Source: Sporosarcina sp. ANT_H38
GTDB taxonomy: Bacteria; Bacillota; Bacilli; Bacillales_A; Planococcaceae
DNA length: 64,000 nt
Assembly: GCF_008369195.1 (NCBI RefSeq)
Contig: NZ_VOBC01000007.1
Location: 26,197 to 90,196, forward strand
Direction of reading: 5' to 3'
The notes below the pieces were generated by a model. It had not been told where the DNA came from, made no database searches, and worked only from the letters and a program-made list of their open reading frames with translations. This document shows positions 30,055-32,885 of the stretch, piece after piece. Position numbers and translations under genes: made by a program. Each line of letters opens with the position of its first letter. The stretch's first letter is position 1.

Positions 30055-30630
30055 TTAAAAACCTATTATATATCCACAAAAAAGGACATAGAAGCCACGT
30101 AAAGGCATCCGATACTTAAACAAAGGCACCCCTTTACTTAGTTCTCTTTTGGCACGGATTAGTATGCTTTTAGAAATCCCTGTAATTACTTGCACTTGCG
30201 TGTAAGAATTTGTTTTCAATAGTTGTAAAGCGTGTGCTACTTGCTTTTTAGTGAATTTCTTTGGCCAACCTTCACGGAAATTAGGATTCTGCTTCGCAAT
30301 GGCTGATAATGTTCTTAAAATTAATCTGCCAATTGATTTATCTTCTGCAAGTCCCATATTTAGTATGTGAACCTTGAATCTTTTTGAAAGTAATTCTTTG
30401 ATTAGATTTACTCCATCTTCTGTCGAACTTGCGAAACGCTCTAGCTTTGTAACTACCAATGTATCGCCTTTTTTCAGCAATGGAAGTAACTCTACAAATT
30501 GGGGACGACCAGCCTTAGTTCCAGTGGATTTCTCGGAATAGATTTTGTCACAACCTTCACTGTCCAGTGTAGGCAGCTGTAAATCTAAATCTTGTGAAGC
30601 TGTACTCACGCGGCAATAAACATATTTCAT
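30055..30630 (-). pseudogene. Serine recombinase (resolvase) with internal deletion
   Basis: The N-terminus [20 protein letters not shown] carries the nucleophile Ser9, and [14 protein letters not shown] is the conserved active-site block, with Ser where Arg is usual in DRFARS. After [10 protein letters not shown] the sequence jumps straight to [15 protein letters not shown]. In related resolvases about 20 residues (the FAEFERD...ERT segment at the start of the long E helix) lie between these parts, so an in-frame deletion has removed part of the dimer and strand-exchange helix. The C-terminal helix-turn-helix remains. It is probably inactive. Confidence 0.75.
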
Positions 30631-30655
30631 ATGTATTTTTTTTTTGCGGTCCATT

Positions 30656-30903: not shown

Positions 30904-31092
30904 TATAATGGTAATATATGGTTCATTCTTACTACCCCTCTAAACTTTTTTATTCCAAGTGTTCAGTGATTTAATTGTTAGTATTCTTGAATTTTGCAAA
31001 GAAGAATAGTGGATTTTAGGAGGTATAAGACGAATGTGAAAACTACCCTGTACTAATCAGAATTAAATTTTGATTGTAAAGGGGTAGTAAGA
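30904..31092 (+). promoter_or_regulatory. Translational attenuator leader of the MFS exporter
   Basis: TATAAT at 30904-30909 is a good -10 element, although no clear -35 is seen. About 15 bases further, 30924-30939 is the perfect complement of 31080-31095, which contains the Shine-Dalgarno sequence and ATG of the exporter gene. A second anti-SD arm, ACTACCC at 31042-31048, extended by AATCA at 31055-31059, pairs with 31071-31075 and 31082-31088. That arm lies inside a tiny leader ORF (31036-31056) with its own AGGAGGT. Ribosome stalling on the leader ORF would open this hairpin and free the exporter SD. Confidence 0.72.
31036..31056 (+). CDS. Leader peptide MKTTLY
   Basis: GTG at 31036 starts six codons and a TAA, preceded by AGGAGGT about 11 bases upstream. 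An overlapping ATG at 31034 is followed at once by TGA. The codons ACT ACC CTG TAC overlap the anti-SD arm for the exporter. Only context supports it. Confidence 0.5.
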   Translation: MKTTLY

Positions 31093-32316
31093 ATGAAGAG
31101 TGCATCTTTCCGTTTTCTTTGGATTGGTCAATCAATGGCCAATTTGGGTGATATTTTTTATATTGTAGGGCTTATTTCAATTTTATATGCTTCGACAGAT
31201 TCACCATTTACATTGGCGTTGGTACCATTTCTCAGTATGTTTGGTCGTTTTATAAGCGGGATGATTTCCCCGCTACTGTTGAATAGATATCCTCTAAAAA
31301 AACTGCTTGTTTACTCGCAAGTAAGTAAGACACTATTGTTGTATTTGCTAGCGCTTATCTTAGTATTTCATATGACGTCCAGCGTGCTCGTACTATTAAG
31401 TTTCGTATTTACAATTGCGTTTTTAGATGGATGGGCAGCGCCAGCAAGCCAAGCAATGTTGCCGCGTTTGGTTCCCAAAAATGAACTTGTGAAAGCTAAT
31501 AGCTTCTTTTCCGTTATTTATGAAACCGTAAATTTAGGTGGATGGGCGATTGGTGGTTTAATTGTTGCATTTTTAAGCGGTCAAACTGTTATTTTAATTA
31601 CGGTTGTTTTGTATCTGATGGCTACTTTACTCATGACTAAAATTATAGATCCAACCGAATTTCAAAGAAAAATTTCCAAAGGTCGTCAGATTGGTGAGTT
31701 AAAAGAAGGTTGGCAAATCGTCTGGAGAAATCCGCTGTATAAGAGTCTTTATGTGATCATCGTATTTGAGGCCGTTGCAAATGTTGTATGGATTGCTTCT
31801 ATACTTTACGTCTTCGTGACTGAAATTCTTGGTGAGACTGAGGCTTGGTGGGGATATATTAATACCTCATTTTTTATTGGAATGGTCGTTGGTGGGATTA
31901 TATGCTCACGTTTCACCTTAATATTCGAGAAAAAGCTAAAGTGTGTTTTGATTATTTTTTCCTTTGGAATCAGTATCATGACATTTCTTTTCGGTTTAAC
32001 GGAGATGGCTTGGTTGTCCCTTATCTTTGCAGGACTCAATGGGGTATTTCAACAACTAAAAGCAATTGCTTCGAACACATTTCTTCAAAAATCAGCCAGC
32101 ACTGAAGAACTTCCTAAAATCTATGCCGCACAAAGTGCGTTGGTGTCGTTATTATTTGCAGTTTCCTCTTTACTGTTTGGTGCTCTTGCTGAGATAGGGA
32201 ATGTAAGAATTACATTTATTATTTCAGCAGCATTGTTAGGAATTGCAGCAATTTATACTGTGATTCGCCATCGTCGTTTTGCTATAGAGGAATCAAATTT
32301 CCCGTTTGAAAGATAA
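31093..32316 (+). CDS. MFS drug-efflux-type transporter
   Basis: This 407-residue membrane protein has about twelve hydrophobic segments. It shows the pattern of macrolide-efflux-like MFS proteins: FRFLWIGQSMANLGDIFY at the N-terminus, FLDGWAAPASQAMLPRLVP in the first half, and the central cytoplasmic GELKEGWQIVWRNPLYKSL. AGGGGTAG is its binding site. The long leader with an anti-SD and a leader peptide is the arrangement found before ribosome-antibiotic resistance genes, so a ribosome-targeting drug is a reasonable guess for the substrate. Confidence 0.85.
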   Translation: MKSASFRFLWIGQSMANLGDIFYIVGLISILYASTDSPFTLALVPFLSMFGRFISGMISPLLLNRYPLKKLLVYSQVSKTLLLYLLALILVFHMTSSVLVLLSFVFTIAFLDGWAAPASQAMLPRLVPKNELVKANSFFSVIYETVNLGGWAIGGLIVAFLSGQTVILITVVLYLMATLLMTKIIDPTEFQRKISKGRQIGELKEGWQIVWRNPLYKSLYVIIVFEAVANVVWIASILYVFVTEILGETEAWWGYINTSFFIGMVVGGIICSRFTLIFEKKLKCVLIIFSFGISIMTFLFGLTEMAWLSLIFAGLNGVFQQLKAIASNTFLQKSASTEELPKIYAAQSALVSLLFAVSSLLFGALAEIGNVRITFIISAALLGIAAIYTVIRHRRFAIEESNFPFER

Positions 32317-32411: not shown

Positions 32412-32458
32412 CCTTTATATCTTATAATACGATACAATCGTATTATAAGATATAAAGG
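32412..32458. promoter_or_regulatory. 22-bp perfect palindrome before the MarR gene
   Basis: Arms 32412-32433 and 32437-32458 are fully complementary around ACA. The core TACGAT-ACA-ATCGTA looks like a MarR operator. The right arm runs into the Shine-Dalgarno sequence, so the transcript could also form a hairpin hiding it. Confidence 0.85.
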
Positions 32459-32468
32459 AGTGGTATTT

Positions 32469-32885
32469 GTGAATAGTAAAATCACGCTATTAAATCAATA
32501 TTGGACGGATATATATTTTCATTTACATTATCCCCATAAAGAAAAGATTTCTCATCAAGTGGTTCGTATTCTGCAACTCGTAGATAAACAGGAAGAAACA
32601 GGAATCAATGAAATTGCCGCACATATACAAGTTTCCCACAATACGGCTTCGGAACATGCTAAAAGAATGATTGAAAAGGGGTATATAGTAAAGGGGAGAG
32701 ATCCTCTAGATGAAAGAAAAGTAATTCTTAATCTAACGAACTTAGGTGACGAAGTTTTACATAAAAACACAAGTCTAGATGTAGATAAATTAGAACAAGT
32801 GTTGAATCAGTTGGATGAAGATGAAAAAAAATTAGTAGAACAAGCTCTAAAAATCTTAAGTGAGCGAGCTAAACAATGTATTTGA
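32469..32885 (+). CDS. MarR-family transcriptional regulator
   Basis: This 138-residue winged-helix regulator has the recognition segment IQVSHNTASEHAKRMIEKGY and the wing DPLDERKVILNLT. GTG at 32469 is chosen because AAGGAGTGG precedes it. A GTG at 32460 lies inside that site. A perfect palindrome just upstream suggests autoregulation. It overlaps the next gene by ten bases. Confidence 0.88.
   Translation: MNSKITLLNQYWTDIYFHLHYPHKEKISHQVVRILQLVDKQEETGINEIAAHIQVSHNTASEHAKRMIEKGYIVKGRDPLDERKVILNLTNLGDEVLHKNTSLDVDKLEQVLNQLDEDEKKLVEQALKILSERAKQCI

Follow-up and report, generated by a model that had tools for sequence, protein, structure and literature searches.

A start-stop leader upstream of an MFS exporter gene in Sporosarcina: a probable translational attenuator with a one-codon ORF

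The exporter gene and its leader

The window, i.e. the whole 64,000-nucleotide stretch of DNA analysed here, belongs to the genome of Sporosarcina sp. ANT_H38 (4.63 Mb, 19 contigs) and contains an MFS exporter gene with an unusual leader. The best NCBIfam model for the exporter was ‘ryptide export MFS’ (NF041056), but membership in this family was rejected, as the score was 220.6 bits against a curated cut-off of 575. Some metagenome sources call relatives of the exporter DHA3 macrolide-efflux-like, and no solved structure was related to it by sequence at E 1e-3. A serine recombinase frame with a resolvase domain (30055-30654, - strand) adjoins the gene. On the other side, an apparently perfect 22-bp palindrome with a 3-nt loop (32412-32458, found by eye) stands directly 5' of a MarR-type gene (32460-32885); extending to the Shine-Dalgarno (SD) sequence of that gene, it is likely an operator and/or an SD hairpin.

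The leader and the gene are made up of the following features:

30904-30909, + strand: -10 box, a perfect TATAAT, 11 nt 5' of arm 1; the -35 is poor
30922-30942, + strand: arm 1, the 5'-terminal anti-SD/anti-start arm, with an exact 18-base complement of 31080-31097 and covariation
31018-31024, + strand: leader SD, AGGAGGT, 9 nt 5' of the start-stop pair
31034-31039, + strand: start-stop pair ATG-TGA, a one-codon leader ORF; SD plus start-stop occur in 60 of 90 MFS homologues
31036-31056, + strand: GTG frame MKTTLY (GTGAAAACTACCCTGTACTAA), an unconserved by-product of overlap with ATGTGA
31043-31049, + strand: arm 2, the local anti-SD arm CTACCCT, complementary to GGGGTAG at 31081-31087 and within the footprint of a start-stop ribosome (to its 16th base)
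31055-31075, + strand: inner AT-rich hairpin (AATCA..TGATT), part of the local lock according to folds
31077-31097, + strand: arm 3, comprising the exporter SD (GGGG, 31081-31084), spacer and start codon; complement of arm 1, with covariation
31093-32316, + strand: MFS exporter gene, 407 aa (PF07690, 4.4e-25; PF05977, 5.6e-17)

A preliminary description of this DNA had reported a 16-base complement of the exporter SD and start region, together with a leader ORF, its AGGAGGT, an overlapping ATG-TGA and a second anti-SD arm. All of these are found in the window sequence, and the complement is actually longer: the core of arm 1 (TTCATTCTTACTACCCCT, 30922-30939) agrees with the reverse complement of 31080-31097 at all 18 bases, and the match extends to 21 nt at 95%. 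When the upstream region was dinucleotide-shuffled 150 times, no shuffle paired equally well with the exporter start (z -7.6). The leader fold (30910-31110) reached a z of -3.1, with 1 of 200 shuffles equally good, and the predicted openness of the exporter SD in the full leader was 0.04.

From the TATAAT, transcription is expected to start at about 30916, just 5' of arm 1. The box makes it less likely that transcription starts downstream of 31040, a case which the preliminary description had set against its own proposal. A perfect TATAAT lies 5' of arm 1 in 19 of the 37 arm-1 leaders examined, a raw count without a control, and no good -35 was noticed in them. Between 31039 and 31093 there is no terminator-like site. 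One weak terminator-like hairpin with a T-run, holding just three G-C pairs, is located at 31118-31148, within the first codons of the exporter. At gathering score, Rfam gave no family in the leader, and its sole match in the window was a tRNA elsewhere. On inspection by eye, some Sporosarcina leaders have an ORF across arm 1; it was discarded, as no SD was noticed and this frame was not seen in the group of the window.

Conservation of the start-stop pair and a second kind of leader

We read the DNA upstream of 90 homologues: all 67 family matches (66 of 261 genomes, E 1e-70), 10 new of 12 matching from 398 genomes drawn from the class (E 1e-85), and 13 new of 16 matching from 80 genomes of another family (E 1e-80). 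An order-level search gave the same tally as the family-level one. In 60 of the 90 homologues (39 + 8 + 13), an SD of at least four exact bases was followed by a start codon directly abutting a stop codon, at -44 to -70 nt relative to the exporter start. L114, with the SD AGGGGG, does not satisfy the exact SD rule and was counted as start-stop on visual inspection. The ATG-TGA pair, which the preliminary description had offered as an additional ‘possible minimal stalling site’, thereby proved to be the conserved element. The remaining homologues either have a leader ORF of five to six codons (27 of 90) or neither kind (L029, L074 and L080); in L029, a two-codon frame, TTG-ATA-TAA, replaces the start-stop. 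By eye, no start-stop leader was seen in the 130 nt upstream of each of the MFS paralogues of the exporter in the same genome (L002-L006).

The codons themselves are variable. Among the 59 distinct start-stop leaders we counted GTGTAA 29 times, ATGTAA 13, ATGTAG 8, ATGTGA 4, TTGTAA 3, and GTGTGA and GTGTAG once each, which makes 31 GTG, 25 ATG and 3 TTG starts, and 45 TAA, 9 TAG and 5 TGA stops. As all three starts and all three stops are used while the start-stop property is kept, selection appears to act on the start-stop itself. A stricter rule (SD of at least five bases) is passed by 55 of the 90 homologues, against a background of 51 occurrences among 563,812 positions, which corresponds to an expectation of 0.0024 for each 27-nt span, bearing in mind that the homologues are related and their counts are not independent trials. 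This background was the flanking DNA of 53 loci plus the window, coding DNA included.

Genome-wide motif searches point to the same association. GGAGG-N4-8-ACGAGTGTAA matched in 21 of 261 genomes (reversed control 1). Twenty of these matches lie directly 5' of MFS genes of the family set and the last one (L154) lies 5' of a broken MFS frame, where a start-stop leader stands before an exporter frame that stops after 65 codons. In the 80 genomes of the G310 family, AAGGAG-N3-8-TCCRRTGTAA gave eight matches (reversed control 2), five of them at MFS leaders and the other three with no exporter start downstream. A start-stop with a strong SD is not a general feature of the window's genome: AGGAGG-N5-10-RTGTRR was not enriched there, with 15 matches (8 true start-stops and 7 TGG) versus 23 in the reversed control, the latter left unsplit.

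Outside the 90, a start-stop was present in both non-Sporosarcina loci looked at, from Halobacillus (L037) and Alkalihalobacillus (L038). Four plasmid loci were examined out of 106 matching records; L047 and L048 have a start-stop by rule, L049 has one by eye with a weak SD, and L050 has no start-stop leader. On the Staphylococcus aureus plasmid (L047:1058-4209), the exporter homologue with its ATG-TAA leader is located 3' of two annotated HEXXH peptide-modification genes, a gene set that is possibly a peptide (RiPP) export operon. A recombinase annotation is found near the homologues on the Cytobacillus (L048) and Lacticaseibacillus (L049) plasmids. Tandem start-stops, about 50 nt apart, occur in L113, L116, L118 and L119.

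The MKTTLY frame did not hold up as a functional leader peptide. The nearest relatives (L007-L009, exporter 85-86% identical) carry GTG-TAA at the site of the window's ATG-TGA and have no MKTTLY-like ORF. The frame exists in the window because a GTG sits inside ATGTGA; such an overlapping GTG frame appears only where the stop is TGA, in five leaders, and the five peptides share nothing (MKTTLY, MSLLFSSKSPS, MSLFFSSNNQFD, MILPFVN and MMENPL). With no conservation in relatives, the peptide was ruled out as a functional part.

The 27 homologues with short peptide leaders are distant, with exporters of 34-39% identity, and encode peptides such as MNSPI*, MTISPI*, MNCPI* and MNRPV*. In 22 of the 23 distinct peptide leaders, the ORF ends in GTCCA, one RTN codon and the stop codon, with GTCCAAT in 21 and GTCCAGT in 1; the odd one is AGCCAGTA. 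Proline is encoded by CCA in all 23, and the codon before it is AGT in 14, TGT in 5, CGT in 3 and AAG in 1. In the ORFs of the window, which are only a proxy for other genera, AGT makes up 17% of serine codons and CCA 32% of proline codons. Because the residue before proline varies (Ser, Cys, Arg) in the 22 GTCCA leaders, while its codon always ends in GT and CCA stays fixed, the pattern suggests a constraint on the RNA rather than on the peptide, to which shared descent could contribute. Two peptide leaders in series were seen in L083, L089 (about -145 and -73) and L096 (-144 and -73). In single folds, the first hairpin extends to the SD region of the second, and a two-step cascade is possible in these three.

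Pairing arms and ribosome masking

The preliminary description had proposed two arms competing for the exporter SD in an attenuator-like layout, and had suggested a search for compensatory changes in homologous leaders. The layout is supported, and the pairing of arm 1 with arm 3 is conserved and covaries in Sporosarcina. Across 23 Sporosarcina leaders, 96.4% of the cells were paired, versus 93.9 in shuffles (0/500). Changes on both sides were found in four pairs (2/500 shuffles) and in 11 cells, versus 3.2 in shuffles (0/500), and there were 12 further pair types (43/500). The covariation sets are partial (A1 without L018, A2 without L051 and L054), and A2, with nine sequences, held no covariation information. 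The arm-1 pairing was matched by no more than 2 of 150 shuffles in 40 of the 52 leaders, namely in 36 of the 39 start-stop leaders of the family, all three of L037-L039, and 1 of 10 others. When arm 1 was swapped between groups, the mean energy was -18.0 kcal/mol, compared with -24.9 for native arms. Per leader, every swap was beaten in just 6 of 21, the weak cases including L038 (21 of 40 swaps as good) and L022 (16 of 38). A pairing of arm 1 with the leader SD is at best a weaker alternative, with -4.7 to -15.5 kcal/mol versus -19.4 to -30.5 for arm 3 in 22 leaders, and was rejected.

Arm 2, which forms a local hairpin with arm 3 behind the stop codon, is weakly supported. A pairing better than 95% of shuffles was seen in only 21 of 52 leaders, and swaps (native -12.6, swapped -10.4 kcal/mol) gave no clear separation per leader. 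Its pairing percentage was above shuffles (0/500), but its double changes were not (346/500). An anti-SD arm close behind the stop is common to both kinds of leader. In single folds, several distant relatives have a local hairpin of different sequence over the SD, and L047, L048 and L073 have no clear one.

The geometry fits a ribosome resting on the start-stop. With the stop codon in the A site, its edge, placed at the 16-nt distance of the vmlR toeprint (PMC9226507), reaches 31049, the end of arm 2. We masked each leader from 16 nt 5' of the start codon through its 16th base and folded the rest for SD openness. The start-stop figures refer to the leaders listed, 45 of 64 tabulated (28 + 17). 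Among these, mean openness rose from 0.12 to 0.42 in 28 leaders with arm 1 left out (up by about 0.1 or more in 21 of 28), and from 0.17 to 0.33 in 17 leaders without an arm 1 (11 of 17). No gain was predicted with arm 1 left out in L009, L010, L013, L021 (a drop from 0.40 to 0.19), L022, L026 and L038, nor in L071 (a drop), L072, L075, L115, L118 and L048. For the 27 peptide leaders, openness went from 0.08 to 0.34 with the ribosome at the stop codon, and was 0.08 with the ribosome at the start codon. These folds suggest that, in both kinds of leader, a ribosome with the leader's stop codon in its A site raises the openness of the exporter SD on average, not in every leader; the local switch is supported by anatomy.

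Arm 1 complicates this picture. When it is present, the masked SD is predicted to stay closed (mean 0.10 to 0.18), including in the window (0.04 to 0.06), while with arm 1 left out the window's SD openness rises from 0.20 to 0.48. The simple model therefore seems incomplete for the window's own switch.

Proposed mechanism, alternatives and precedents

The reading that we consider probable is a translational attenuator whose leader ORF is a single codon, allowing initiation and termination only. The transcript would begin just 5' of arm 1, as the TATAAT indicates. At rest, sequence and folding suggest that the local hairpin of arms 2 and 3 closes off the SD and start codon of the exporter; in the relatives of the window, sequence, covariation and folding indicate a stronger, long-range helix of arms 1 and 3 as a further lock. 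Ribosomes would load via AGGAGGT onto ATG-TGA. As only initiation and termination are possible there, their dwell time would be set by the speed of initiation-complex maturation, release and recycling. A compound slowing any such step would park the ribosome, its P site occupied by AUG and its A site by the stop codon. In this position the leading edge of the ribosome would cover arm 2, consistent with the geometry above, and the local lock would open. Arm 1 must leave too, perhaps through trimming of the transcript from its 5' end as far as the parked ribosome. We favour this guess because, in Bacilli, stalled ribosomes and strong SDs are described as blocking decay from the 5' end (PMC3997798). 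The exporter would then be made and pump the compound out. Two hallmarks of translational attenuators are present, namely an SD-preceded leader ORF upstream (a start-stop in 60 and a short peptide ORF in 27 of the 90 homologues) and, by prediction and covariation, sequestration of the gene's SD by the leader RNA. Another, arrest specified by leader-peptide codons, is absent, since the ORF is one codon and MKTTLY is unconserved.

More tentatively, the element may be a peptide-free sensor of one ribosome state, namely P-site NUG together with an A-site stop. Besides GTCCA in the peptide leaders, TCCA or TCCG stands directly 5' of the start codon in 13 of the 59 distinct start-stop leaders; therefore both kinds of leader may be one RNA-level element, which could detect a block in termination or in the steps from initiation to release. 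The antibiotic expelled by the exporter may be one that acts on termination or the E site.

Several alternatives would do without drug sensing or without the start-stop. A strong SD with a start-stop could simply park ribosomes as a roadblock to 5' decay, in the manner of a STAB-SD. In Bacilli, a strong SD in the 5' leader is reported to stabilise mRNA even when no start codon goes with it (PMC3997798); a two-codon minigene increased txe expression, possibly by mRNA protection (PMC8708949). However, such parking would require no stop codon, and it leaves unexplained both the anti-SD arm close behind the stop in the two kinds of leader and the short peptide ORFs that 27 relatives have at the same place, so that we regard it as unlikely. 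It is less likely still that ribosomes terminating at the start-stop proceed to the exporter start in constitutive, coupled translation. Termination-reinitiation has been reported at AUGUGA and GUGUGA, overlaps, with narQ (GUGUGA) as the natural case (PMC9841429), but here the two sites lie 44-70 nt apart, the SD in between is locked, and the arms would be counterproductive.

A non-ribosomal RNA switch (a thermometer, or one binding a protein or small molecule), with the start-stop as a bystander, would make use of the strong lock that arms 1 and 3 form by themselves. We consider it quite improbable, given that the start-stop is retained although both of its codons vary, and that the leader has no Rfam family at gathering score. 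Least credible of all is the MKTTLY hexapeptide as an arrest peptide: its ORF and SD exist in the window, but the nearest relatives lack the ORF and the peptide is not conserved.

The attenuator reading has partial precedents. In the ermC and cat attenuators, a leader ORF has an SD, and a ribosome held on it uncovers the SD-sequestering arm; they rely on the peptide and on an internal stall codon. The exporter leader shares with them the SD-preceded ORF and the sequestering arm, but has no peptide. For ermC, stabilisation of the mRNA is also described (PMC3997798). Start-stop sites were reportedly described by Meydan et al. in 2019 from ribosome profiling of E. coli. They have also been described in C. 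jejuni, with reference to E. coli; there too, the stop comes immediately after the start codon and the site is apparently translated. Unlike our leaders, these sites do not figure in that account as a conserved switch before one gene family (PMC11955535). The axe-txe minigene is likewise a minimal leader ORF that raises expression of the next gene in cis, but it has two codons, belongs to a toxin-antitoxin operon and is proposed to protect mRNA (PMC8708949).

The closest precedents are vmlR uORF(MIN) of B. subtilis and toiL-topAI of E. coli. The former is also a uORF of very few codons with an SD before it. Lincomycin induction requires both this SD and the start codon, and the leader has a predicted SD-sequestering hairpin; tripeptide variants MDN and MDK function, and MRK less well (PMC9226507). 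This uORF differs in encoding a tripeptide, in acting mainly through transcription attenuation at a terminator, whereas we found none between leader and exporter, and in controlling an ABC-F protein instead of an MFS exporter (PMC9226507). In toiL-topAI, antibiotic-stalled uORF ribosomes (at the start codon in the case of tetracycline) similarly open a closed ribosome-binding site, but the uORF has several stall positions, the target is a toxin-antitoxin system and Rho-dependent termination is involved (PMC12121999). Together these two systems show that a gene can be switched by drugs which hold ribosomes at the start codon or close to it (PMC9226507, PMC12121999). Kasugamycin arrest at start codons is reported to depend on the base 5' of the start codon (PMC8794815). 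In a literature search mostly at the level of titles and beginnings of abstracts, we recognised no paper that describes an exporter family under the control of a conserved start-stop leader.

If the proposed mechanism is true, this leader would contain the smallest possible attenuator ORF, which many Bacilli have kept, free of any peptide code, before a single exporter family. Sensing would here take place, in a natural system, at an A-site stop codon. The leader would make testable the question of which antibiotics hold a ribosome limited to initiation and termination, and would provide a readout for inhibitors of initiation and release. Its natural inducer could be a lead to an antibiotic that is still uncharacterised.
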